A stretch of 64,000 nucleotides of DNA from Candidatus Kryptoniota bacterium (GCA_036567965.1 DATCTN010000019.1:1-64000); one strand, 5' to 3'. Positions 30,092-45,006 are shown, numbered from the stretch's first letter. Numbers and translations: made by a program. The notes: generated from the letters alone by a model not told the origin.

Positions 30092-33000
30092 ATGAAATTT
30101 ATGAACCTCATACGGAATCAACTGTTGCTTCTGCTCATTCCTGCAGCGGCGGCATTTTCCCAATCACTAATTGATACCCTAGACTCACCACTTGACGGAC
30201 AGGTGAACGCGGTGATTGTCAACGGCACAAAGATTTATATGGGCGGGAGCTTTACAAAGATCGGATATTCCACCGGGCCAGGAGCTTTGCTCGACACTGC
30301 CACAGCCTTACCTGACCGGACGTTTCCGAAGTTCGATCCTATGGAGGGGCTCGGCACATACCTCTTCACGTCCGCTCCGGACGGATCAGGTGGATGGTAT
30401 GTCGGCGGACAGTTCAAGTACATCAACGGTGTGCTGAGGAAATATCTCGCGCACATCCGTGCGGATCACACATTGGATCCGTGGGATCCCGAACCGAACA
30501 GCTTCGTCAAAGCGATATGTGTCACCGGAAGCCGGGTCTACATCGGCGGAGTGTTTGATTCGGTAGCGGGTCAGCAACGAGGTTATGCGGCTGCGTTCAA
30601 CAAATCAGACGGATCATTGCTTCCGTGGAACCCGCAGGCTGATAATGTAGTGACCGCATTGCAGGAAATGGGACAATACGTTTACATCGGGGGCTACTTT
30701 TATAGTTTGCACAGCCAGACTCACCTGGCAATAGGTTCGGTCGATACCGTTAATGGAAATCCGACGAACTGGTCTTTCTACAATACGGTTCCGTCTTTCT
30801 CGGGATACATATCGAGCTTTATTTACACCGGCGGCTACCTCTATGCGGCGGGGCTGTTCTCCATGATCGACAGCGTAAACCGACTCGACCTCGTGAAATT
30901 TGACCAGGCGGGAAATGTGGTGATGAATTGGAATCCCGGCGCGACTCTGAGCGGCGGCGGGGATTACGCGACAGTACTTGCAGTCTCAGGCAGCAACGTC
31001 TTCGTGGGCGGTTCCTTCACATCAATCGGCGGAAGATCTGTTACAAACCTCGCGGCCATCGACACCGGGACCGGACTCGCCTCGGCCTGGAGTCCGAATC
31101 CCAACAACAATGTCGCCTCACTGGCCGTCTGCGGATCAAAGCTGTATGTCGGCGGACCATTCACGTCGATCGGCGGAAGAAGCATAAGCTACCTGGCAGC
31201 GATAGACACGTCGACAGGGAACGCTACGACATGGGATGCCAAGTTGGACAATTATCCATGGACCATCCTTCCAAGCGTTGGATCGATATTCGCCGGAGGA
31301 TACATGCAGTCGGCAGGTTCAACCACCCGGAAGGGGCTGGCCTGTATCGACTTCGCAACCGGGCGTCTGACATCGTGGAACCCGAACGCGACCGGCGGAC
31401 AGGTTCATGCGATCGTCATCGCTAGTGATAAGTTGATCGCCGGCGGTGAGTTTACAAATGTCGGCGCGAGTAATCTTTCCATACCGTACTTAGCGGCGTT
31501 TGATACAACGAGTGGAAATCCGATCCAGAGTCCGACGTGGCAGGGAAGAGCGGGAGGAATCGTCAGATCTCTCCTCGTTATGGGAAACAGGCTGTATGTC
31601 GGAGGAGATTTCTTCTCACTCGACTTGAACAGTCGCAGTTATCTCGGAGCAATTGACAAAACAACCGGCATCCTCAACCCGTGGCATCCGACTCTGGATA
31701 ATGGCGGAGTATGGTCCATGGCGTCCTCAGGTACGAAGGTCTTTGTCAGCGGCTTCTTTTCTAACATTAACGGAACAGCTCGAGGGTACGCGGCTGCATT
31801 CGACACCACGAATGATCTCCTCACTTCGTGGGATCCGGAACCCGATAATTTCTGTTACGCGCTTGCAACGTTGGGAAACAAAGTCTATCTCGGAGGACAG
31901 TTGTTCAGCGTCGATGGTAACTCGTCTGTAAAGAGCCTTGCAGCGGTCGACACCTCTTCGGGCGCGCTTTTCCCGGGGTTCAATTCAAATTTCGCACTCG
32001 CCCTGAGCGTTTATGCAATCGCTGCGATTGACACGGACCTGATTATCGGTGGACAGATGTCCAGCTCATACAGCCCGAATCGTTCCGCGCTTGCGTACCT
32101 GAACCCTAACACGGGATCTGTCGAGGGGTTCAATTCACACATGAACGAAGACATAGGTACCGCGACGGTCTACTCGCTCGCACTCGGGAACCACACTCTC
32201 GTGGTTGGTGGACAATTTCTAAATGCCAACTATTTTCCTCAGGCAAATCTCTTAGCCTATTTGGACAGTTCTATCGTGGTCGGTCCGAAGCTGAAAATTG
32301 TACCTGACACTATTTCATTCGGATACGTCTTGGACGGCCAGCACAAAGACACCACCGTCACACTGGAAAACATTGGATCTGCAGATTTGAATATTACCAG
32401 CGTGACTTCGACCAGTCCCGAGTTCTCAATCACGCCGACGAGCGTCACGATTCCCGCAGGCGGATCAGTTTCAGACTCCATAAAGCTGACAGCATCCGGA
32501 ACGACACATGTCGTCGCACTTTTGCTTTATTCAAGCAACTGCCCGACTAATCCGGACACTGTATGGGTGGATGCGAGACCTGAGTCGCCGCTGCCGGTGG
32601 AGGTGACTTCCTTTTCAGCTTCGACTGGAGAGGGACAGGTCGTGATTAGCTGGAAAACGCAGTCGGAAGTCGACATCGCGGGTTTCAATATAATGAGACT
32701 CGACCCGGGCGCGGCATCTTTCAAGTTGATATCAGGATACACAAGTAACGATAGATTGAAAGGACTCGGGACAAGTCCGACCGGCCGGTCGTACCAGTAC
32801 AGCGACACGAAGGTCGCGTCGGGCGGGAAATATGAATATAAGCTCCTGAGCGTGTCAACCGACGGAAGCGTAAACAACCTCAACACTATTAGTGTCATCG
32901 TGGATGTCCCCAAGGAATACGCGCTGTACCAGAATTATCCTAACCCGTTCAACCCGTCTACGAACGTCAGATTCGATTTGAAGGAAACTTCTTCAGTGAA

Positions 33001-33190
33001 ATTGATCGTCTTCAATTCTATCGGGCAACAGGTCTCCGAATACGATCTGGGTCAACTGGAGGGAGGAAGATACGCCCGCGAGATTGACATGAGCCGATAC
33101 GCGAGCGGCGTGTACTATTTCAAGATAGATGCTTCCGGCACCGACGGGCAGCACTTCACTTCAATTAAAAAAATGGTTCTTATGAAGTAA
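30092..33190 (+). CDS. Large T9SS-exported repeat protein (propeller-like YVGGxF repeats)
   Basis: This 1,032-residue protein has a signal peptide (ending AAFSQ), then about 12 repeats of roughly 55 residues built on vYvGGxFtsigG...LAAiDtxTG...WnP, which suggests a delta-60-type propeller or solenoid. An HYDIN/DUF1573-like Ig domain (about 731-830), a fibronectin-like domain (LPVEVTSFSAS, about 832-935) and a type A T9SS sorting domain (YALYQNYPNPFNPST, from about 943) follow. It is expected to be exported across the outer membrane and anchored or released. AGGAAGGAA precedes the ATG. Confidence 0.88.
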   Translation: MKFMNLIRNQLLLLLIPAAAAFSQSLIDTLDSPLDGQVNAVIVNGTKIYMGGSFTKIGYSTGPGALLDTATALPDRTFPKFDPMEGLGTYLFTSAPDGSGGWYVGGQFKYINGVLRKYLAHIRADHTLDPWDPEPNSFVKAICVTGSRVYIGGVFDSVAGQQRGYAAAFNKSDGSLLPWNPQADNVVTALQEMGQYVYIGGYFYSLHSQTHLAIGSVDTVNGNPTNWSFYNTVPSFSGYISSFIYTGGYLYAAGLFSMIDSVNRLDLVKFDQAGNVVMNWNPGATLSGGGDYATVLAVSGSNVFVGGSFTSIGGRSVTNLAAIDTGTGLASAWSPNPNNNVASLAVCGSKLYVGGPFTSIGGRSISYLAAIDTSTGNATTWDAKLDNYPWTILPSVGSIFAGGYMQSAGSTTRKGLACIDFATGRLTSWNPNATGGQVHAIVIASDKLIAGGEFTNVGASNLSIPYLAAFDTTSGNPIQSPTWQGRAGGIVRSLLVMGNRLYVGGDFFSLDLNSRSYLGAIDKTTGILNPWHPTLDNGGVWSMASSGTKVFVSGFFSNINGTARGYAAAFDTTNDLLTSWDPEPDNFCYALATLGNKVYLGGQLFSVDGNSSVKSLAAVDTSSGALFPGFNSNFALALSVYAIAAIDTDLIIGGQMSSSYSPNRSALAYLNPNTGSVEGFNSHMNEDIGTATVYSLALGNHTLVVGGQFLNANYFPQANLLAYLDSSIVVGPKLKIVPDTISFGYVLDGQHKDTTVTLENIGSADLNITSVTSTSPEFSITPTSVTIPAGGSVSDSIKLTASGTTHVVALLLYSSNCPTNPDTVWVDARPESPLPVEVTSFSASTGEGQVVISWKTQSEVDIAGFNIMRLDPGAASFKLISGYTSNDRLKGLGTSPTGRSYQYSDTKVASGGKYEYKLLSVSTDGSVNNLNTISVIVDVPKEYALYQNYPNPFNPSTNVRFDLKETSSVKLIVFNSIGQQVSEYDLGQLEGGRYAREIDMSRYASGVYYFKIDASGTDGQHFTSIKKMVLMK

Positions 33191-33257
33191 AGAGAACCTG
33201 CGGGACTCGCGCGCTACAAATAGACATGGCGACGAGATGAACAGCAAGGAGAAAGAA

Positions 33258-35582
33258 ATGTTTAGCACAATATTCGGCGTGAAGTGTCTCAGAATTCTCG
33301 TCTTGTCCCTGGCGACGATGGCGATAAGTGGTGGCTCGGCGCTCGGTCAGGGACAACAGGCGGTCACATTTATTGTTCCCATTTCGGGCGGATTCAATGG
33401 CACGAGCATAACGACTGTGACTGGCGCGAGCAATCCATCGCCAGAATATCCGTTCGGAAATAATCCAATAACAGAGACCGGCAACGGGTTTTTGGTCAAC
33501 ATCGGGTATAGGGGATGGAGCAGCCAAAGCTGGGTTGATATTCCGAACGGTTGGACTGTCGCCCATTTTGCCCCGAAGGTGACATACATGACTCAAGACA
33601 CCATGGCGGCCACAACAGGAATTATCATCCAGTTTACGAACGGAAAAGTGATCCTGATAAAATTCGGTGTTGCCGAAGGAGGAAAGGACTCGGTGTATGT
33701 CGGAGAAATCGGCACGTCCGGATCGGTCGGTTGGGACGACATAAAAGGAGACGCGATTTATTCACTCTCGAACCAGGGATTGTTTGTGAACAGGGATAAT
33801 ACGCTACAGACCTGGGAATTGGACAGCACGGGATTGAGCGGCGCTCAGATTTACGGTTTCGCTTTGGATCGGACACAAAACGTATTCGCGGCGACAGACC
33901 ACGGACTCTTTACTCAGTCTCCGAATTCAAACACATGGAGTAAGGTCACGTCGTTCACGGGATCGTCGAGCCTATATCAGATTTTCATCGACAGGAAGAA
34001 TCGATTTCTCGTGGCGGGAAACGGCGGCGGATTATGGCTGAGCACGGATAACGGATCAACATGGTCAGAAGATACATCAGGCATCGGAAGCGAATGGCCG
34101 AGCCTCATGAGCGACGATGCGTACGGAAACCTTTACACTGTCACTGATAATCCGTTCACATCGGTTTTCCATCTTTACAAATCAAGCGGCGGAAGCGGAT
34201 CGTGGCAGAATATAGACGGACCGATACGGAGCATTTCCGTTCGCGGCTTTGGCATAAACAGTTTGTGGGGTGACAGTGCACTCTTGGCCGCCACTAACTT
34301 TGGAATTTTCATAAGCACGGACCAGGGATCCACCTGGGCCGTCGACAACGAAGGCATACCCGCCTCAAACATTTACGGAATGGGAATGACGGCATCAGGG
34401 ACGATACTCCTAAGCAGCGATCTTGGAATTTTCAAGAACACTCCTCCCACCACCTCGTGGACGAAGTCATACCCGCAAAATGGTTTTCAGGGTCAGCTGA
34501 GAATTTTTACGGACGGCGCTGGAAATCTGTTCACGCTTGACCCCGGCCTCGGACAAAATCCGCTGGGAGCGATACCGATTGTTAAAAGCACAGACAATGG
34601 AAGCACGTGGGTACCTGACACCACTGGCCTATCCGCCGTGGGCGGCACGGTCTTCTACGTGGATGAAACAGGTGCGGAACATTACTGCAACTCGTTATAC
34701 GGTTCGATCCATTATTCGCAAATCTGGTCGAAGCCTTCCGCCGGGGTGTGGGCGCTGGACACGGCTGGCCTCCCGAATCTGAATTATAGTTACTTCTCGT
34801 CGATGACTTCCGATCATCATGGATACCTCTATGCGAGCGGGTATTTCGGCGGGGAAAAGGTTGCCCGTCGACCTATCGGAGGCGGGACATGGACCGTCGA
34901 CACAAACGGTCTGGGAAGCGCAATCACGAGTTTCTATAATATGGTCCCCGGCACGAACGGTGAAGTGGTCGGTTACAACGGCGGGATCTTGATGCGGCGG
35001 TCGGCAGGGACATGGACAAAAGTTCCTGTCCCCTCACAACTTTTCTTTCCATCAATTAATTCCGTATCCGTCGACAATACTGGAGCCATATTTGCTTCGT
35101 TCATCGATTTCAATGACAACGGACTTGGAGTATTCTACACGACGGACAACGGCACAACATGGATAAGCGTCGGGCTCGACAGCATCAATGTCAATTCGTT
35201 AGTCTCATTCGGTGATTCCACTTATGCACTCACCCGCACGTCAGGAGCTTATTATGTAAGTAAGACACCTGTGACTGCAGTAAAGACTCAGACATTGCAG
35301 CCTGCCACCTTTTCGCTCTCTCAGAATTATCCCAACCCGTTCAATCCGTCAACAGCAATCAGCTATCAGCTGCCAGTCGTCAGCCGCGTGACTTTGAGGA
35401 TATATGACGTACTGGGACGGGAAGTGGCCAAACTCATAGATGGGATTCAAACTTCCGGCAAACACTCAGTTACCTTCGATGCGTCACGTTATGCAAGCGG
35501 TGTCTATTTCTACAAGCTTGAAGCGACGGGCAATGACGGGAAGAAATTCATATCGACGAAGAAACTGATGCTCATAAAATAG
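33258..35582 (+). CDS. T9SS-exported Asp-box (BNR) propeller protein, paralogue 1
   Basis: The 774-residue product has a signal peptide ending SALGQ, a unique N-terminal domain (about 35-150), propeller repeats with Asp boxes such as STDNGSTW and STDQGSTW, and a T9SS type A domain from about 685 (LSQNYPNPFNPST). The start at 33258 is chosen because AAGGAG lies six bases before it; an ATG at 33237 sits upstream of that site. It is the first of three tandem paralogues with the same layout. Asp-box propellers occur in sialidases and in adhesive or polymer-binding proteins; no catalytic residues are visible. Confidence 0.85.
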   Translation: MFSTIFGVKCLRILVLSLATMAISGGSALGQGQQAVTFIVPISGGFNGTSITTVTGASNPSPEYPFGNNPITETGNGFLVNIGYRGWSSQSWVDIPNGWTVAHFAPKVTYMTQDTMAATTGIIIQFTNGKVILIKFGVAEGGKDSVYVGEIGTSGSVGWDDIKGDAIYSLSNQGLFVNRDNTLQTWELDSTGLSGAQIYGFALDRTQNVFAATDHGLFTQSPNSNTWSKVTSFTGSSSLYQIFIDRKNRFLVAGNGGGLWLSTDNGSTWSEDTSGIGSEWPSLMSDDAYGNLYTVTDNPFTSVFHLYKSSGGSGSWQNIDGPIRSISVRGFGINSLWGDSALLAATNFGIFISTDQGSTWAVDNEGIPASNIYGMGMTASGTILLSSDLGIFKNTPPTTSWTKSYPQNGFQGQLRIFTDGAGNLFTLDPGLGQNPLGAIPIVKSTDNGSTWVPDTTGLSAVGGTVFYVDETGAEHYCNSLYGSIHYSQIWSKPSAGVWALDTAGLPNLNYSYFSSMTSDHHGYLYASGYFGGEKVARRPIGGGTWTVDTNGLGSAITSFYNMVPGTNGEVVGYNGGILMRRSAGTWTKVPVPSQLFFPSINSVSVDNTGAIFASFIDFNDNGLGVFYTTDNGTTWISVGLDSINVNSLVSFGDSTYALTRTSGAYYVSKTPVTAVKTQTLQPATFSLSQNYPNPFNPSTAISYQLPVVSRVTLRIYDVLGREVAKLIDGIQTSGKHSVTFDASRYASGVYFYKLEATGNDGKKFISTKKLMLIK

Positions 35583-35756
35583 CACAGCTGATCATGACAT
35601 TGAGCCGTTCAGAAGTGACTCTGCGCAAAGAATGCCGGATATCCGGGCGATGAGCGGGGTAGGTTTATGCCTGCATCCTCATCGCGCTCTGGCGCTCAAC
35701 ACGTGAGACCACAAGTTGCTAACGCCGCATACTCATCGTAACCGAAGAGGAAAAAC
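35583..35756. other. Spacer with inverted repeat between T9SS paralogues
   Basis: An 8-bp perfect inverted repeat GCGATGAG/CTCATCGC (35647-35654 and 35678-35685) spans a 23-nt loop. It may act as a weak terminator or processing site between paralogues 1 and 2. GAAGAGG at the end serves as ribosome-binding site for the next gene. Confidence 0.4.
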
Positions 35757-38021
35757 ATGAAAAAAGTTCTAGTCGCAACGTTCGCTCTTCTTCTCCCGCT
35801 GTCATCAAGCTATGTCGCACTTGCACAGGATGAAACACCGGCGGGAGATCAGGTCATAGACGAAACGATCATTCACGACCAGCCTTATCAGTCCCAACCC
35901 GGCTTTTTCTTGAGAGTAACCACCACAGCGAAAGGGGTCCGAATATACTATCAGGACAGCTCCGGCAATTGGAAATTGTCAAGATGGGCACAGGAATCTT
36001 ACGACTTTCCCCCGAAGGGGCAGGAAATAAAAGATGCAAGACACAAGTCCGGCGACCAGTATAAGAATGAACTGTTGATCATGCTGACCGACGGCTCAGT
36101 GTATGCCATGGTGCTCCCCGGCGGAAGACTTATCTCGAAGGGCAAGTTAGATCCCAACGCTGGGCTTCCGCGCAAGATCGGAGGAGACGCAATTTACGCC
36201 ATCACCTCAGGCGGCGTTTACGTGAACAGGGACTCGACAACCAATTTATGGAGCATCGACACTGCCGGATTAGGAAGCGTGTTCCTCAATGACATCGCGC
36301 TCGATACACTCCTCAATGCTTTCCTCGCAACTTCGAATGGCCTGTTCAAGCAGGCGCCTGACTCGACTGGTTGGAGGATGGTGAGCGGCGTTAGCGGCGG
36401 TGTAAACGCAATCTTCGTTGACCGCATAGACAGAATCTATGCGTCTACTTACTCGGGAGTCTACTACAGCACCGACGACGGCAACACGTGGAATTCGCTT
36501 GGCACGGGATTGATAAATTATAACGTAAACAAATTCGGCGATGATATCTTCAGGAACATTTACGCCATCGATGGAGCCGGAGTTTTTAGGTCCGATAGCG
36601 GAACAACATCTTGGGTGAGAATTGATACTCCGATAACTGGAAAGATCCTTGACCCGATTAATTCGTACAGCTCACCATTCAATAGCATCAATGGCGACTC
36701 CGATTTGTATCTCGCGACGAATTACGGCTGTTTCATGAGCACAGACCGCGGTACATCGTGGTCGGAAGCAAATGAAGGGATCAGTGCGGAAAATCTTTTC
36801 GGGTTCGCGCAATCTTCTGATCGCAATTTTGTTTCGACAAGCCTCGGCCTGTATTACGAAGAGAAAAATGATACGGTATGGACGAAAGTCTTTCCCTCAA
36901 ATGGATACGAGACCGGCACGGCGATTTATGCAGACTTGAATGGGAATCTTTACACTCAAGGCCCTCTTCTGGATAATTCCGTTTATGGAAGTCTGCCGAC
37001 AAATTGGAAAAGCACGGATGATGGTACGACCTGGTTTCCGGACACTGCCGGTCTGACAGCGATCGGCACTGGGCAGGTTCCCAAATATTTCGCCGATGAG
37101 AACGGGGTCCAGCATTATATGTTCTCCGGTTCCGCCGCGGACTGTTACGTGAAATCATCCGGTTCTCCGTGGCTGCCTGATACGACCGGATGGGGAATCC
37201 TACCGCAGAATTATCCCAATGTTTTCGGAGTTGACGGCGAGGGAAATCTGTACGCGGCGATTACAAACACGGTAACCTACACAGGCTTACTTCTCCGTCG
37301 TCCGCTTTCCGGAGGGACATGGGTTCTCGACACCGCAGGATTGAACGGTGCGATAATCTACAGCATAACTCCTGACAAGGCCGGAAATCTATACGCCGGC
37401 ACTTGGGGGAGCGGGATCTATAAGAAGACTGGAACTACATGGTCCTCCATTTCTTTGCCTAACGGTCTCGGCGGCAACTCGGCGTTCGTAACCGCGGAGG
37501 ACAAGTCCGGCGCTCTATTTGCCGGCTTTGCCACACAGGGAGCTAATTTTAATTACGTGTGGCACGGAGTCTATTTCACGACAGACGGTGGCTCATCCTG
37601 GACCAGTGTCGGACTTGACAGCATTGCGGTAATAGCACTCGTGCCTTCGGGAGATTCGATCTACGCGGTAACGTACTATGACGGTTTGTATACCTTGGCA
37701 AGAACCGGCGCACTCGGCGTGAAACAAATGTCAAACGCGCCGAGTTCTTTCGCGTTATTCCAGAACTATCCGAACCCGTTCAATCCGACGACCTCGATAA
37801 GCTACCGACTTCAAGTCGTCAGTCGCGTGACTTTGAAGATATATGATGTCCTTGGAAGAGAAGTAGCCACCCTAGTGGACGGACTTCAAATTTCCGGTGA
37901 GCATTCGATTACTTTCAATGCGTCGCGATATGCGAGCGGAGTTTATTTCTACAAACTCGAAGCGACAGGTAATGATGGGAAGAAATTCATTTCGACGAAG
38001 AAGCTAATGTTGGTCAAATAA
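35757..38021 (+). CDS. T9SS-exported Asp-box (BNR) propeller protein, paralogue 2
   Basis: The 754-residue product has a signal peptide ending VALAQ, an N-terminal domain unlike that of paralogue 1 (about 25-150), then shared blades containing STDDGNTW, STDRGTSW, STDDGTTW and TTDGGSSW. The T9SS tail begins near 665 (LFQNYPNPFNPTT) and is nearly identical to paralogue 1 in its last 60 residues. Only 14 nt separate it from paralogue 3, so they are probably co-transcribed. The ligand is unknown. Confidence 0.85.
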   Translation: MKKVLVATFALLLPLSSSYVALAQDETPAGDQVIDETIIHDQPYQSQPGFFLRVTTTAKGVRIYYQDSSGNWKLSRWAQESYDFPPKGQEIKDARHKSGDQYKNELLIMLTDGSVYAMVLPGGRLISKGKLDPNAGLPRKIGGDAIYAITSGGVYVNRDSTTNLWSIDTAGLGSVFLNDIALDTLLNAFLATSNGLFKQAPDSTGWRMVSGVSGGVNAIFVDRIDRIYASTYSGVYYSTDDGNTWNSLGTGLINYNVNKFGDDIFRNIYAIDGAGVFRSDSGTTSWVRIDTPITGKILDPINSYSSPFNSINGDSDLYLATNYGCFMSTDRGTSWSEANEGISAENLFGFAQSSDRNFVSTSLGLYYEEKNDTVWTKVFPSNGYETGTAIYADLNGNLYTQGPLLDNSVYGSLPTNWKSTDDGTTWFPDTAGLTAIGTGQVPKYFADENGVQHYMFSGSAADCYVKSSGSPWLPDTTGWGILPQNYPNVFGVDGEGNLYAAITNTVTYTGLLLRRPLSGGTWVLDTAGLNGAIIYSITPDKAGNLYAGTWGSGIYKKTGTTWSSISLPNGLGGNSAFVTAEDKSGALFAGFATQGANFNYVWHGVYFTTDGGSSWTSVGLDSIAVIALVPSGDSIYAVTYYDGLYTLARTGALGVKQMSNAPSSFALFQNYPNPFNPTTSISYRLQVVSRVTLKIYDVLGREVATLVDGLQISGEHSITFNASRYASGVYFYKLEATGNDGKKFISTKKLMLVK

Positions 38022-38035
38022 CGGAAGGGGAATCT

Positions 38036-40327
38036 ATGATGTTCAACTTAAGAAGCACCTGTACCAGTTTACTGGGATCATCTGTTATTTTTTTGTTTTC
38101 CCTAAATACCGTATTCGGGCAATCTTCTCCTGTTGGGGGAAACCTCTACAGCGACCCAATTACTGGTTCGGATGGGAACTATCTCTCAACATCTAATGGG
38201 GTCTTTCAGGGCGTCTACACTCCCCCTGCCGGTGTATATTACTCTCCGTTATATAGACCACCATATGGAACACACATCGTTAACATTTTGCTCTCGTACC
38301 GGGGACTTAGTGACATAGTACATGTTCTATTGGACAACGGGACGGATGCAGAACTTTTCCTTTCGCAGACAAAGGATCATAAGAATGGCGAACCCCTCAT
38401 GAAAGTCGATTCCTCGAGAAGAGTCCCCACGCCCGAAGACTCTACGGGATGGAAAAAACTCAAGGGCGACGCCCTTTATGCACTCGGTACGCCATGGTCT
38501 TCATCTTCTCCGATACTATATGTTTCAAGAGACAGTGTAGAAACCTGGCAGGTTGACACGAGCGGCATCAACGGTGCTAAGATACAAGACATCAATCTCG
38601 ACACTCTGCAATATGTTTATGCCGCAACTGACAACGGTCTCTTCATTCAGAATCCGGATTCCAATGTCTGGCATAGAGCTACGTTTTTCACTCAAGCGAC
38701 AAATCTCTATTCCGTCTTTATCGACAGGAAAGATCGCATTCTCGTCAGCGGAAACGGCGGCGGCTTGTACATCAGCACCGATAATGGAGCATCATGGAAC
38801 AGCGACGCTTCCGGGGTCGGTTCAAATCAAGTCCTTTTGATAGCAGACGACGCTTACAACAATCTCTACATATCTGCGGGCACATCGATTTTCAGTTTTG
38901 GAGCACACATCTACAAATCAATGGGGGGCACTTCTTCCTGGGTGGAAATCGATTCGTCTATTACTCGAATTGTAAGTAGTGCCAGTTTCCAAAACATGCA
39001 AATCAATTCGCTGTCCGGCGATAGCATCCTTGTCGCAGGAACTTCGTTCGGAGTGTTCGTGAGCACCGATCAAGGAACAACCTGGGCGATGAACAACAAC
39101 GGAATCAAAGCTGAAAACTTCTCCGGCATGGTGAAAACGGGTTCCGGAAAAATCCTCATGAGTTCCGCACTTGGAATATTCTCAAATACTCCTCCCGACA
39201 CGGTGTGGGACAAAACTTATCCACAGAACGGCTTTGAAGGTCAACTTCCTCTTGTCAAAGACGGCCTCGGAAACATATACACGCTCGATCCGGAAATCTT
39301 TCTTCATTCCGGCAACGGTGCCATCGCGATCGTGAAGAGCACGGATGCAGGATCCACTTGGTCCCCTGACACACTCGGTCTTTCAGCTGTAAATGGTGGT
39401 TTGTTTTATGTTGATGAAACCGGCGCGCAACATTACGGCGGAGGTCACCAATTCTTCGGCACCAACCCGGATTTGTGGACCAAACCAGTTAGCGGCTCGT
39501 GGACTATCGACACGACAGGTTTTCCCACGCAGAGCACCAACTATGTCGCGTGTATGACTTCTGACCGTAACGGCTTTCTTTATATCAGTGGAAACCTCTC
39601 CGGCAAGAAGGTCATGAGAAGACCCGTTGGCGGGGGCACTTGGGCGGCAGATACGTCCGGTGTTCCTTCGTCCGTGCCTTCGTTCGTACAGATGGTACCC
39701 GGAACAAATGGAGATGTATTTGCTGTCGGCGGTCCCTCCGGTTCGGGAATAATGCGTCGATCGGGCGGAACCTGGTCAACACTGTCTCTCCCTTCTTCAC
39801 CCACGCCTGCATACGTCACCGCACTCTCAGTTGACAACTCCGGTGTGCTCTTTGCAGGATTTGCAGATGCCAACTATATGGGACTCGGAGTCTATTTCTC
39901 AACTGACAACGGAACTTCGTGGTCATACGACGGACTGGACAGTGTCATAGCTACTTCACTTCTATCGTTCGGCGATTCGACATACGCCCTCACGGACGGC
40001 GAAGGCGCGTTCTACCTCGGAAAGAGTCCCGCCACGAAAGTGACAGGCAAATCGACAGCGCCGAGTTCGTTTGCGCTTTACCAGAATTATCCCAACCCGT
40101 TCAATCCCACGACGGTGATAAGCTACCGACTTCCAGTCGGTAGTCACGTGACGTTGAAGGTGTACGATGTGTTAGGGAGAGAAGTCGCTACTCTTGTCGA
40201 TGGTCTTCAAAATCAGGGTAAACATGAAGTCACATTTGAAGGATCGCGTTTTGCGAGTGGCGTGTATTTCTACCGCCTCTCCGCCGAAGGACAGGTAAGA
40301 GTATCGAAAATGCTGCTATTGAAGTGA
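38036..40327 (+). CDS. T9SS-exported Asp-box (BNR) propeller protein, paralogue 3
   Basis: The 763-residue product has a signal peptide ending TVFGQ, an N-terminal domain again different in sequence, blades with STDNGASW, STDQGTTW, STDAGSTW and STDNGTSW, and a T9SS tail from about 679 (LYQNYPNPFNPTT). Its final 25 residues diverge from the other two, ending RVSKMLLLK. A 9-bp perfect hairpin lies inside the tail coding sequence at 40123-40143. GGAAGGGG precedes the start. Confidence 0.85.
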   Translation: MMFNLRSTCTSLLGSSVIFLFSLNTVFGQSSPVGGNLYSDPITGSDGNYLSTSNGVFQGVYTPPAGVYYSPLYRPPYGTHIVNILLSYRGLSDIVHVLLDNGTDAELFLSQTKDHKNGEPLMKVDSSRRVPTPEDSTGWKKLKGDALYALGTPWSSSSPILYVSRDSVETWQVDTSGINGAKIQDINLDTLQYVYAATDNGLFIQNPDSNVWHRATFFTQATNLYSVFIDRKDRILVSGNGGGLYISTDNGASWNSDASGVGSNQVLLIADDAYNNLYISAGTSIFSFGAHIYKSMGGTSSWVEIDSSITRIVSSASFQNMQINSLSGDSILVAGTSFGVFVSTDQGTTWAMNNNGIKAENFSGMVKTGSGKILMSSALGIFSNTPPDTVWDKTYPQNGFEGQLPLVKDGLGNIYTLDPEIFLHSGNGAIAIVKSTDAGSTWSPDTLGLSAVNGGLFYVDETGAQHYGGGHQFFGTNPDLWTKPVSGSWTIDTTGFPTQSTNYVACMTSDRNGFLYISGNLSGKKVMRRPVGGGTWAADTSGVPSSVPSFVQMVPGTNGDVFAVGGPSGSGIMRRSGGTWSTLSLPSSPTPAYVTALSVDNSGVLFAGFADANYMGLGVYFSTDNGTSWSYDGLDSVIATSLLSFGDSTYALTDGEGAFYLGKSPATKVTGKSTAPSSFALYQNYPNPFNPTTVISYRLPVGSHVTLKVYDVLGREVATLVDGLQNQGKHEVTFEGSRFASGVYFYRLSAEGQVRVSKMLLLK
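40123..40143 (+). repeat. Coding-sequence hairpin in T9SS tail
   Basis: CTACCGACT and AGTCGGTAG form a perfect 9-bp stem with a 3-nt loop within the sorting-domain coding region of paralogue 3. The matching place in paralogues 1 and 2 has imperfect versions. It could be chance codon use, a recombination scar or an mRNA structure. Confidence 0.45.
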
Positions 40328-40405: not shown

Positions 40406-41839
40406 ATGGAATCCGTAACTGTAGGCGATCTGAAAAAAGTAATAGCGCTAAGAGACCTGCCGGACGAACATCTGCGCTGGATCCTTGATCATACGGAATA
40501 TTGCGAATATGCGGATGGAGACCTGATTGCAAAATACGGTGACGAAGCCGATGTCATGTGGATAACGCTGGAAGGCAAAGTTGTTTTTTACATGTATGTA
40601 AACGGGCGTCAGGTCTATTATTTCACATTCGAAAACAATAATCTCTCGGGTGGCGTGGGCGGTTTACTCCCGTACTCAAGAATGAAGACTTCTCCTGGAT
40701 ACTCCTACGCGTCAGGAGACGTAAAAGTTCTCAAACTGAATAAAAAATATTTTCACGACCTGGAGACTCTTAACCCTGATTTCATTCAGCGTCTCATCGG
40801 TTACATGACGGAGAGAGCCAGAGTATTTGCCACCACTCAGCTTCAGTACGAAAAAGTAAATGCCCTCGGTAACCTCGCCGCGGGTATAGCACATGAACTC
40901 AACAACCCGGCCGCCGCTATCAGCCAGATTTCAGATGAGCTTGAAAAGAGATTGGACCGCAATTACGAGCTTACGAGGGAATTGCTCGGCAGCGGAGTCG
41001 AACCGGGACAAATTAAATCCATCCACTCACTTGTCGAAAAAAGAGAAGCTTCGCTCGACAACAAGAACAAACTTACTACTCTCGAGTTGATGGAAAACGA
41101 AGACGAGCTTGCCGACTGGCTGGAGCAGAGCGGTTTCAGAGATAGAGAAGCCGCGGAGACTTTTTCGGAATCTGGATTTTCTGCATCTGAGTTACAGAAC
41201 ATTCTAAACGACTTGGGCCGGGATGCGTTCGTCCTTGTTATCCCGTGGCTCGAGAATCTCCTGAGCTCGTATAGAATTGTCAAGGATCTCAAAGCAGCTT
41301 CCAATCGCATTTCTAAGTTGGTCGGATCAATAAAGAGCCACGTGAATATGGACAGAACGAGTGACCTGCAACCGACCAATATTCACAAGGACATCGATGA
41401 CACGCTCACACTCCTGGGGTTCAAACTCCGTAAGAAGAATATTTATGTCAAGAAGAAGTTCTCTGAAGGAATGCCAGCCGTCCCCGCCTACGTCGGTGAG
41501 TTGAACCAGGTCTGGACTAACCTCATCGACAATGCCATCTTCGCGATGGGGAATGACGGCGAGCTCTCAATTGAGACGACACACGATAACAAAGAAGTCA
41601 CCGTCAGAATTACTGATAACGGTTCTGGAATCCCCAAGGAGATCATCTCCCGGATTTTTGATCCGTTCTTCACGACAAAGAAAGTCGGTGAGGGAACAGG
41701 AATCGGCCTGGATATAGTAAGCAGGGTCGTGAAGCGTCATAACGGCAGAATAGAGGTCAAGTCTGAGCCGGGCAAAACAGAGTTTGCAGTTCACATCCCG
41801 ATCGAACACAAAGTGGAACCAAATCAGGAGGAAGGATGA
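40406..41839 (+). CDS. Sensor histidine kinase with cyclic nucleotide-binding-like domain
   Basis: The 477-residue soluble protein has a cNMP-binding (CRP-like) domain at about 11-130, then a kinase core: H-box [11 protein letters not shown] with phosphoacceptor His163, N-box [11 protein letters not shown]1 DNGSGIP, F-box DPFFTTK and G2 GTGIGL. Between the two dimerisation helices lies an insert of roughly 110 helical residues (about 180-290), well beyond a standard HisKA. No membrane segment is visible, so the signal should be intracellular. The stop overlaps the next gene by ATGA; that receiver fusion is its likely partner. Confidence 0.93.
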
Positions 41840-43497
41840 AACTTCCTTATATCATTATTATTGACGACGATGTACAAGTGCTGCATGCAATACAGCGGGA
41901 CATCCGGAATGAATACCGGGATGAATACCGAATTGCGGCGACGGAATCGGCAATCGAAGCTCTGGAACTGATCAAAGATTTGAGGCTGAAAAATGATACG
42001 GTGGCGTTATTTATTTGTGACCAACGGATGCCTGAAATGGACGGGGTGACTTTTCTAGAGAAGGCGAACGAGATTTTCCCCGCCGCAAAAAAAATCCTCC
42101 TCACCGCGTATTCGGACATTGAAGCAGCGATAAAGGCAATCAACAATGTGAAACTGGATTATTACTTACTGAAGCCCTGGCATCCTCCGGAAGAAAAACT
42201 CTTCCCGGTTACAAATGACCTGCTTGACGAATGGCAAGCGCTCTATAAACCAGACCCGGACGCAACACGAATCGTTGGTTTCCAGTGGTCTCCTAAGACT
42301 CATCGTCTGAAGGAATTTCTTTCCGGAAATCTGGTTCCCTACATCTGGATGGACATTGAAAACGATCCGGAAGCTGAAAGGTACCTGGCAAGTGCGAATG
42401 TCACCAGATCAAACCTTCCGTTGGTGGTACTTAAAGATAGTTCTTTCATGATTGATCCTTCACTGCCTGATCTTGCTGCTAAAGTGGGGCTCCAGCAAAA
42501 GGCAACCAAAGATATGTATGACGTACTCATCATTGGTGCAGGGCCAGCCGGGCTTGCCGCATCCGTATATGGTTCTTGCGAAGGACTCAAAACGCTTCTC
42601 ATTGAAAAGAGTAACCCGGGTGGACAGGCGAGCAGCAGTACTCGCATTGAGAATTACCTCGGTTTCCCAACCGGTCTTTCGGGAGCCGAACTCACGAGGA
42701 GAGCAATCACACAAACTCTTCGTTTTGGAACAGAGATTCTTACTCCCACAGAGGTGAAGAATATTACCTTGCAGGATGGATACAAGATCACAAAGCTGGT
42801 TGACGGCTCAGAAGTCCATAGTAAAACGATCGTGATCGCTACCGGTGTGGCTTATAGAAAGCTCGAAATCCCGGGACTGGAAAATTTCGCCGGTGCAGGT
42901 GTCTATTATGGTGCAGCCTCGGTTGAAGCTCACGCATGCCGCGGTGAAACGGTATACATCGTGGGCGGTGGGAATTCGGCTTGCCAGGCAGCTATGTACC
43001 TGAGCAGGTTTGCAAAGGAAGTGAACATCGTGATCAGGCGTGCCGCACTCTCAGAGACGGCCGCGAACTATCTTGTGGAAAATATCAGACTGACATCCAA
43101 CATAAGAATAGTTGCCGATACAGATGTAATCGGTTGTTCCGGCTCAACCTTCCTGGAAAACATCACGCTCAAAAATGCTACGACTGGTGAAGAGATGACC
43201 GTGCCGGCAAAAGCGCTGTTTGTTTACATCGGCGCAAAGCCCAGCACAGAATGGCTGGGCAGTCTTGTGCTGAAAGACGCTAAAGGTTTCATAATCTGCG
43301 GAGGCGATTTGTTGAAGGACAAGTCGTTTGATAAGTTCTGGAAACTAAAAAGAGATCCGTTCATGCCGGAAACAAGCGTACCGGGAATTTTCGCGTCGGG
43401 TGATGTACGAGTTGGAGCAACTCCAGGCATTTCTGCTGCTGTCGGAGAAGGGTCTATGGCTATCCGGTTCGTACGTAAATACTTGCAGGAAGTGTAA
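41836..43497 (+). CDS. Receiver - glutaredoxin-like - thioredoxin reductase-like fusion, redox cysteines absent
   Basis: Domain order over 553 residues: a receiver (1-130) with Asp62 in CDQRMPEMDG, Thr90 and Lys113; a glutaredoxin-like region (about 143-225) where the expected CPxC reads SPKT; and a thioredoxin reductase-like flavoprotein (about 230-553) with GAGPAG at 234-239 (FAD) and GGGNSA at 377-382 (NAD(P)H). The CATC disulfide of thioredoxin reductase is replaced by GAAS at 359-362. So FAD and NAD(P)H binding look intact but thiol transfer does not. NCBI-style names for relatives, 'fused response regulator/thioredoxin-disulfide reductase', may mislead. It is coupled to the upstream kinase by ATGA. 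Confidence 0.92.
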   Translation: MKLPYIIIIDDDVQVLHAIQRDIRNEYRDEYRIAATESAIEALELIKDLRLKNDTVALFICDQRMPEMDGVTFLEKANEIFPAAKKILLTAYSDIEAAIKAINNVKLDYYLLKPWHPPEEKLFPVTNDLLDEWQALYKPDPDATRIVGFQWSPKTHRLKEFLSGNLVPYIWMDIENDPEAERYLASANVTRSNLPLVVLKDSSFMIDPSLPDLAAKVGLQQKATKDMYDVLIIGAGPAGLAASVYGSCEGLKTLLIEKSNPGGQASSSTRIENYLGFPTGLSGAELTRRAITQTLRFGTEILTPTEVKNITLQDGYKITKLVDGSEVHSKTIVIATGVAYRKLEIPGLENFAGAGVYYGAASVEAHACRGETVYIVGGGNSACQAAMYLSRFAKEVNIVIRRAALSETAANYLVENIRLTSNIRIVADTDVIGCSGSTFLENITLKNATTGEEMTVPAKALFVYIGAKPSTEWLGSLVLKDAKGFIICGGDLLKDKSFDKFWKLKRDPFMPETSVPGIFASGDVRVGATPGISAAVGEGSMAIRFVRKYLQEV

Positions 43498-43526: not shown

Positions 43527-43555
43527 GTGACCGTCACTTTTAATGTGACGATCAC
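43527..43555 (+). terminator. Hairpin after receiver-TrxR gene
   Basis: GTGA-c-CGTCAC, a 7-nt loop TTTTAAT, then GTGACG-a-TCAC make a 10-bp stem with one internal mismatch, 30 nt after the stop. Pyrimidine-rich sequence follows but no clean T-tract, so termination is probable, not certain. Confidence 0.55.
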
Positions 43556-43577
43556 CTTCCGTTACCTTTTCCTATCC

Positions 43578-43609
43578 TTTGATTTTCCTTCCAACAACAT
43601 TTATATTTG
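43578..43609 (+). promoter_or_regulatory. Bacteroidota-type promoter before divIVA
   Basis: TTTG at 43578-43581 and TATATTTG at 43602-43609, 20 bp apart, match the Bacteroidota -33 TTTG and -7 TAnnTTTG consensus exactly. The start codon lies 28 bp further on. It fits a new transcription unit (divIVA, PNP and onward) after the hairpin. Confidence 0.6.
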
Positions 43610-43637
43610 TCCCTTAGACAACGAATTAGCCGCAGAA

Positions 43638-44192
43638 ATGAGACTTACTCCTCTTCAAATTCGAAAACAGGAATTCTCAAAAAAGGTCCGTGGACTGGAT
43701 CCTGAAGAAGTTGAGGCATTCCTGACGACTGCCGCGACAGATTTCGAGGAGCTTCTGAAAGAAAACATGGAGCTTCGCGCACAAAAGTCGGCGCTTATAG
43801 AGGAACTTCAGAATTACAAGAAACTCGAAGATTCCTTCCGCTCTCTCGTAACCCAGGCTGAGAAGGCGGCGAACGAGTCGACCGAAGCTCTGCGCAAAAC
43901 AGGAAAGATTGTCCAGCACGAAGCGGAAGTGAGAGCCCAGCAACTCCTGAACGAAGCGTCCGCAGAATTGACGCGTGCAAAATCCCGGCTGGCGGATGTG
44001 AAGAACCTTCGCGAGACGATTGTCAAGACCATCAGAACAATCCTCACCGCCCAGCTCGACATGCTTAGCTCGCTCGAGAGTGAGCTCCTCAAACAAGAAC
44101 CTCCATCGGATGTGCTCGACATAAAATCGATTATCGAATCTATTGAACAATCCCCCAAAGCTTCTCCGCAGGAACCAGACCAGCATGAGTGA
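43638..44192 (+). CDS. DivIVA domain-containing protein
   Basis: The 184-residue product begins with the DivIVA/GpsB membrane-binding motif [19 protein letters not shown], then DPEEVEAFL, followed by about 120 residues of coiled coil and an acidic, Gln/Pro-rich tail. The ATG at 43638 gives this canonical N-terminus; the frame upstream reads through the promoter. DivIVA proteins mark curved membrane or organise the division site. The stop overlaps the PNP start by 8 nt. Confidence 0.88.
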
Positions 44193-45006
44193 GCTGCGTA
44201 CCAAAATTCAGGAGTCGGTCGATTTCATCAAAACGAAATCAAAACACGAACCGACTGTAGCAATCATTCTGGGCACTGGGCTCGGCGGCTTAGCGGCTGA
44301 GATCCGGAAGCAGACAATTATTGATTACGGAGACATACCTCACTTCCCGCTGTCGACAGTGGAATCGCATCACGGCAAGTTGATTCTAGGTAAGCTGGGA
44401 GGAAAAAATATTGTCGCGATGCAGGGCCGGTTCCATTTTTACGAAGGTTACACGATGGAACAGATTACGCTACCGGTAAGAGTGATGAGATTTCTCGGTG
44501 CGAGGACGCTTCTCGTCTCGAATGCCGCCGGAGGATTGAATCCGAATTTTCGCCGCGGCGATCTGATGATCATCGTCGACCACATAAACCTTCTCGGCCA
44601 GAATCCCCTGATTGGTCCGAATGACGATAAGATGGGCCCGCGCTTTCCTGACATGAGCGAGCCTTATTCAAAAAGCCTGATCAAGACTGCTATTGTTGCT
44701 GCCCTCGATCTGAAGATCAGGGTCGAACGGGGTGTCTTTGCTTCAATGACGGGTCCGAGTCTGGAGACGCGTGCCGAGTACCGGTTCCTTCGGATGATCG
44801 GCGCTGACGCGGTCGGGATGTCGACAGTACCGGAAGTGATCGTCGCAGTTCACATGGGGATGAAGGTCTGCGGCTTCTCAGTAATCACCGACGAATGTTT
44901 CCCTGATTCGCTCGCGCCGGCCGATGTGAATGAGATCATCCGGGTAGCTAAAGAAACGGAACCCCGGCTGACGAAACTCATGAAAACAGTCGTCGAGAGA
45001 CTTTAA
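44185..45006 (+). CDS. Purine nucleoside phosphorylase (trimeric type)
   Basis: The 273-residue enzyme should cleave inosine and guanosine with phosphate to free base and ribose 1-phosphate. Family motifs are GTGLGGL, ESHHGKL (phosphate-site His), [20 protein letters not shown], and [14 protein letters not shown] with the base-binding Glu. The length matches trimeric PNP, about 274-290. The start at 44185 lies inside the divIVA end. It should serve purine salvage. Confidence 0.94.

Follow-up and report, generated by a model that had tools for sequence, protein, structure and literature searches.

According to the abstract of a 2011 work by Burroughs, Iyer and Aravind, bacterial ZF-UBP domains are reportedly part of a novel cyclic-nucleotide-dependent redox signalling system. 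In the TrxR-like ferredoxin/flavodoxin-NADP reductases, the thioredoxin reductase (TrxR) fold is active without a CxxC motif, and KefF, a flavoprotein with a fold different from that of TrxR, acts on the Kef antiporter KefC. A relative described at the protein level is ATII-TrxR from a Red Sea brine, a cNMP-fused 'thioredoxin reductase' that shares 87% identity with a protein of C. metallidurans. Produced in E. coli BL21, ATII-TrxR reportedly bound FAD, used NADPH as well as NADH and reduced both DTNB and thioredoxin, with a reported Km of 5.2 μM for NADPH and a kcat of 28 s−1 for thioredoxin (PMC6544261). For fusions of a receiver to a TrxR, our search found no direct literature; a review on Deinococcus thiol reductases does not mention them, and the literature searched gave no function for any member of the REC type.

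The kinase and fusion described here constitute a sensor kinase with a switch domain on a flavin enzyme and belong to a large family found in many phyla. These flavoproteins are encoded in hundreds of genomes, often under the label 'FAD-dependent oxidoreductase' or 'thioredoxin-disulfide reductase', yet the family lacks both chemistries implied by the latter label.

Gene pair, neighbourhood and family

In the window, i.e., the whole analysed stretch of 64,000 nucleotides from a Candidatus Kryptoniota bacterium, the two genes occupy 40406-43497 (Table 1), and both ORFs begin and end exactly where a previous sequence-only reading had placed them. The kinase features the H-box histidine and HATPase boxes of histidine kinases; its HisKA match is weak (Pfam, 18.7 bits vs a cut-off of 26.9). 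In the fusion, Asp62, Thr90 and Lys113 are invariant in our alignment A2, which gives the receiver a complete phospho-acceptor set. The positions of these residues and of the FAD and NAD(P)H motifs, all described as intact in the earlier reading, could be verified.

Table 1. Features of the kinase and fusion genes, numbered from the first nucleotide of the window.
Feature	Position	Strand	Basis
Sensor histidine kinase gene, 477 aa	40406-41839	+	ORF and Pfam: CRP-like domain, linker, H-box, HATPase
CRP/cNMP-binding-like domain, residues 34-119	40505-40762	+	PF00027, 25.5 bits; phosphate-binding cassette degenerate
Phospho-acceptor His163 in H-box	40892-40894	+	His in 49/49 kinases
HATPase_c, residues 365-467	41498-41806	+	PF02518, E 5e-26, 91.8 bits; N, G1, F, G2 boxes intact
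ATGA start/stop overlap of kinase and fusion genes, 4 bp	41836-41839	+	Sequence
Fusion gene, 553 aa	41836-43497	+	Receiver, mycoredoxin/Grx-like domain, TrxR-like flavoprotein
Receiver domain, residues 6-118; Asp62 (phospho-acceptor), Thr90, Lys113	41851-42189	+	PF00072, 57.1 bits (cut-off 30.2)
Mycoredoxin/Grx-like Trx-fold domain, residues 148-217, site SPKT	42277-42486	+	TIGR02200, E 3.6e-9
SPKT (152-155) replacing CPxC	42289-42300	+	Ser152 in 116/123 relatives, never Cys
TrxR-like FAD/NAD(P)H domain, residues 225-552	42508-43491	+	PF07992; VIA Z 35.2, rmsd 2.0 to 5mh4
FAD motif GAGPAG, residues 234-239	42535-42552	+	Sequence
GAAS (359-362) replacing CATC	42910-42921	+	No Cys in 123/123 relatives; family motif YYGAA..EA
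NAD(P)H motif GGGNSA, residues 377-382	42964-42981	+	Sequence

The module is preceded by four large secreted proteins encoded in a row (30092-40327), the first two of which have a Por_Secre_tail (Pfam). The last two (35757-38021 and 38036-40327) look like tandem paralogs and have near-identical sorting tails. An inverted repeat, GTGACCGTCAC-TTTTAAT-GTGACGATCAC (43527-43555), begins 30 nt past the fusion stop codon; it had been annotated as a terminator-like element of the minus strand and is also similar to paired GTGA/TCAC operator half-sites. Immediately 3' of the module, a DivIVA-domain protein and a purine nucleoside phosphorylase are encoded on the same strand (43527-45006); their ORFs, as annotated, overlap.

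Of the 296 genomes of the phylum, 40 encode a full-length fusion, and in a species-level genome collection at least 593 places were confirmed, which include other TrxR-like relatives matched by the patterns. Members occur in Bacteroidota, Cyanobacteriota, Chloroflexota, Acidobacteriota, Deinococcota, Actinomycetota, Verrucomicrobiota and Ignavibacteriota, and plasmid-borne fusions with 44-50% identity are present in Nostoc, Deinococcus, Caballeronia, Streptomyces, Tsukamurella and others. In a sister architecture, an N-terminal cNMP domain replaces the receiver on the same TrxR-like protein; such direct cNMP-domain fusions, mentioned in the earlier reading, do exist among the relatives. A short architecture (L122, L172) has neither receiver nor cNMP domain. 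In a tree of the TrxR domains, thiol-less and CxxC-bearing proteins were split by a branch with 100/99 support, for which the program warned of long internal branches. The CxxC side consists of canonical TrxRs together with a pair of Grx-Grx-TrxR proteins in which CPDC and CATC are intact. The latter (L159 and L160, from genomes G042 and G154) feature two CPDC sites in addition to CATC and thus represent a thiol-complete relay in one chain.

The earlier reading had also proposed that kinase and fusion form a conserved module, and a genome survey bore this out: all but one of the 40 genomes of the phylum that encode the fusion (39) also have a window-type kinase, which is absent from the remaining 256 (Fisher p ~5e-48, a value that ignores relatedness). 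The kinase ortholog adjoins the fusion or lies near it in 36 of these 39 genomes, in 33 of them at a distance of 300 bp or less. The sole fusion genome without a matched kinase (G086) contains a HATPase-type ORF directly upstream (L142). Among loci of other species from several phyla, 56 of 80 have a same-strand kinase within 700 bp of the fusion, and in more of them a kinase is nearby in some form. Six genomes with only a receiver-less Grx-TrxR-like protein yielded no window-type kinase at the threshold used. In Caballeronia (L120, 4484-9062), one fusion gene is located between two ATP-binding, kinase-type genes.

Cofactor sites and former thiol sites of the flavoprotein

Pyr_redox_2 matched residues 228-539 of the fusion with 119.8 bits. 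The AlphaFold2 model (mean pLDDT 86.7) was closest to TrxR structures of the flavin-reducing (FR) type, on which it superimposed with an rmsd of 1.8-2.5 (2.0-2.4 for 5mh4 in the FR form and 1f6m with Trx), and it superimposed on the flavin-oxidising form 5mjk_A with an rmsd of 7.7. Further entries were assigned to the flavin-reducing or flavin-oxidising form according to general features of the family. The FR-like conformation of this single-chain model is weak, only suggestive evidence; it would fit NAD(P)H reducing FAD directly, with no need for the rotation of domains on which CxxC chemistry depends. Structures of TrxR-like FNRs were a poorer match to the model (Z 27.9-28.5). Cofactor use in the clade is supported by the FAD and NADPH data reported for ATII-TrxR. 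The profile of the Grx-like domain matched the M. tuberculosis mycoredoxin Mrx1 (2lqo) with an E value of 6.8e-9; its model (pLDDT 91.8) resembles Grx/NrdH-type chains, with 3zit_B as best structural match (VIA Z 12.9, rmsd 1.5 over 77 residues).

Both thiol sites are missing from the fusion, as the sequence-only reading had noted. The replacement of CATC by GAAS was confirmed with the refinement that, relative to true TrxRs, the loop has gained one residue, and SPKT in place of the Grx-like CPxC indeed starts at residue 152. Owing to the extra residue, two registers are open to CATC in the alignment, one on GAAS (359-362) and one on A360..V363, and both are free of cysteine. Alignment of 123 relatives over positions 359 and 362 and the Grx-like site showed that the loss is clade-wide: at residues 356-365, i.e., in the CxxC loop, cysteine occurs in 0 of 123 members. 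The replacement loop itself is conserved (Tyr358 in all 123, Glu364 in 122 and Gly359 in 115), and so is an S-P-x-S-H motif at the former Grx site. With these motifs maintained in 123 relatives, the observation goes far beyond chance. Local decay of a TrxR was hence rejected as an explanation, with both the clade-wide cysteine loss and the conserved replacement motif against it.

Elsewhere in the chain, no cysteine column is invariant among the relatives. Cys368 is the most common (92 of 123, with Phe in 20), followed by position 514 (43), and three orthologs have a single cysteine in their entire chain, at a different position in each. This rules out a dithiol relay within the chain for these three orthologs and makes one improbable family-wide, and we rejected a hidden conserved cysteine pair on the same counts. 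The fusion as the sole TrxR of the cell was rejected as well, because a cysteine-intact CATC-type TrxR is separately encoded in the window's genome and TrxRs over the cut-off were found in 16 of 16 relatives tested.

With moderate confidence, we favour an NAD(P)H flavoprotein that works independently of thiols, is regulated by phosphorylation and would signal to a partner under control of the kinase. Judging from the order of genes and domains, His163 of the kinase would phosphorylate Asp62 of the receiver, and this phosphorylation would alter the state of the attached flavoprotein. In the flavoprotein of the window, NAD(P)H would donate hydride to FAD, and no electrons would be passed on via a CxxC or Grx-type dithiol. 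Its flavin state or conformation might then act on a partner, either through allosteric contact or by delivering electrons to an acceptor other than a disulfide. A UBP-type zinc-finger protein, which in some cases is fused to a Kef-like cation/proton antiporter, probably is this partner in many relatives.

It is conceivable, but unlikely, that the fusion instead works as a catalytically silent scaffold or as an NAD(P)H/FAD sensor, in which the cofactor sets the conformation and the flavin releases no electrons. Such a role would agree with the joint loss of both relay sites in the presence of conserved cofactor motifs and a conserved YYGAA..EA loop, and with the constant tie of the protein to signalling domains, i.e., receiver and kinase or cNMP domain, the short form excepted. 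However, the complete NAD(P)H site has been kept, which suggests turnover, and ATII-TrxR is reported to oxidise NADPH with DTNB or thioredoxin present (PMC6544261).

We consider it quite unlikely that the fusion still is a disulfide reductase, acting via a non-canonical cysteine, e.g., Cys368, or by direct attack on low-molecular-weight disulfides. Retention of Cys368 in most relatives speaks for such an activity, and so do the reported thioredoxin and DTNB activities of ATII-TrxR. The latter bear directly on the clade: Cys206, Cys223 and Cys376 of ATII-TrxR correspond to Cys234, Cys251 and Cys404 of the C. metallidurans CH34 protein (L125), which lacks a CxxC. As its three mappable cysteines match those of L125 at a constant offset of 28, ATII-TrxR belongs to the CxxC-less clade. 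Yet the absence of an invariant cysteine, the exchange of Cys368 for Phe and the single-cysteine orthologs all argue against a disulfide reductase, and a cysteine-mutant control for ATII-TrxR was not found in the passages of PMC6544261 that were searched. With E. coli BL21 as expression host, carry-over of TrxB from the host into the preparation is possible. If the assay is right, members of the clade may be able to reduce thiols without a CxxC; contamination by host TrxB would take this conclusion away. We therefore treat the earlier reading's inference of a function other than thiol reduction as tentative.

Kinase input and candidate partners

The CRP-like nucleotide domain attributed to the kinase stood up only in part. 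Its fold is recognisable, with E. coli CRP as best PDB match (E 5.6e-6), but the PF00027 match lies under the Pfam cut-off (25.5 vs 27.5 bits), and in the alignment with E. coli CRP both the Glu and the Arg of the phosphate-binding cassette are absent. Among 49 kinases, the cassette Glu is present in 11 and Glu together with Arg in none; Bacteroidota-type kinases keep a G-x-LP-[YF]-SR motif in place of the cassette. The cassette residues thus disfavour canonical cyclic-nucleotide sensing by the window kinase, and control of the flavoprotein by cyclic nucleotides through this kinase, as proposed in the earlier reading, was not supported. The domain probably senses something other than a canonically bound cyclic nucleotide. 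Cyclic nucleotides may be made by this organism, because its genome contains three class III cyclase domains. Likewise, TrxR-like proteins of the cNMP type may still bind cyclic nucleotide, since some alphaproteobacterial cNMP-TrxR fusions appear to retain GE..R. A cyclic-nucleotide-gated redox system with the CRP-like domain as cAMP or cGMP sensor would be in line with the CRP fold, the three cyclases and these direct fusions, but with Glu and Arg missing from the window kinase and never found together, and with another motif conserved in the Bacteroidota type, we regard it as very unlikely.

A UBP-type zinc finger (PF02148) was found in 28 of 46 genomes of the phylum with either family type vs 2 of 250 others, and in 24 of the 40 that encode the fusion. 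No PF02148 match is present in the window's own genome, and zf-UBP was rejected as a partner there. In Tsukamurella, Streptomyces, Dyadobacter, Mucilaginibacter and others, the zinc finger is encoded inside the operon. In three genomes (G183, G242, G219), a CPA2-type antiporter with TrkA_N and a C-terminal zf-UBP is located between or beside fusion and kinase, the antiporter-zf-UBP gene fusion sitting within the operon (L135-L137). Neither the zinc finger nor its fusion to an antiporter figures in the earlier reading. Genes of the cNMP type in Rhodococcus and Streptomyces are grouped with trxA and zf-UBP and neighbour chaperone genes, clpB among them. A role in anti-phage defence was discarded, as PADLOC gave no match.

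Some further observations concern these neighbourhoods. CPA2 cation/proton antiporters with TrkA_N were seen in L135, L136, L137, L138, L173 and L174, with a C-terminal zf-UBP according to Pfam in L135, L137 and L138; on the Deinococcus plasmids (L173, L174), the full-length antiporter relatives are distant from the fusion. In Tsukamurella (L121, 9559-10644), a gene for a mycothiol-dependent formaldehyde dehydrogenase follows the zinc finger of the module. Another locus (L140, 2004-2959) contains a small ORF in three near-identical tandem copies that looks GIY-YIG-type.

If the output of the favoured thiol-independent flavoprotein were control of an antiporter or zinc finger, two-component signalling would be linked to flavin state without thiols. 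By analogy to Ser-type glutathione transferases, we may speculate further that the former thiol sites are a ligand reader, in which SPxS and a conserved Pro would hold a low-Mr thiol noncovalently, the flavin would report NAD(P)H and the protein, upon phosphorylation of its receiver, would gate a Kef-type antiporter via the UBP zinc finger. Such an arrangement is very unlikely; if true, it would mean that a thioredoxin reductase has been repurposed for redox-to-ion-flux signalling.

Comparison with known systems

The Grx-like domain of the fusion has the same Trx fold of Grx/Mrx type as mycoredoxins and glutaredoxins; in contrast to these, it is devoid of a CxxC or CxxS cysteine, and its TIGR02200 score is 36.9 vs a cut-off of 89.5. 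With the low-Mr thioredoxin reductase TrxB, the fusion has the fold and the FAD and NAD(P)H motifs in common, whereas it lacks the CxxC, falls into a separate clade and reaches 233.2 bits with TIGR01292 vs an equivalog cut-off of 343.45. The TrxR-like ferredoxin/flavodoxin-NADP reductases are less close to the fusion model than are TrxRs. Grx-Grx-TrxR proteins (L159, L160) show the same order of Grx followed by TrxR, and their Grx domains are homologous to that of the fusion (28% identity, E 7e-12). Unlike the fusion, they contain CPDC and CATC and no receiver; at the Grx site, WCPDC in these proteins compares with WSPKT in the window. ATII-TrxR shares the clade with the window system but has a cNMP domain where the window has receiver and kinase, and thioredoxin reduction is reported within the clade only for this cNMP-type relative.

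Finally, the cassette of TrxR-like protein, kinase and zf-UBP seen in relatives fits the ZF-UBP redox signalling system of 2011, and our survey makes this dormant prediction testable and reveals a conflict with the published ATII-TrxR assay. The window locus agrees with that system in its TrxR-like protein with a kinase or cNMP domain; it differs in that its genome has no zf-UBP and its kinase no cNMP-binding residues. The locus is thus likely a predicted system of the ZF-UBP type minus the zinc finger, and the system as such was likely predicted already in 2011, a point that the earlier reading had missed. What may be new is the cysteine loss across the clade, the degenerate cNMP site of the kinase, the discrepancy with the ATII-TrxR assay and the presence of an antiporter fusion within the operon.
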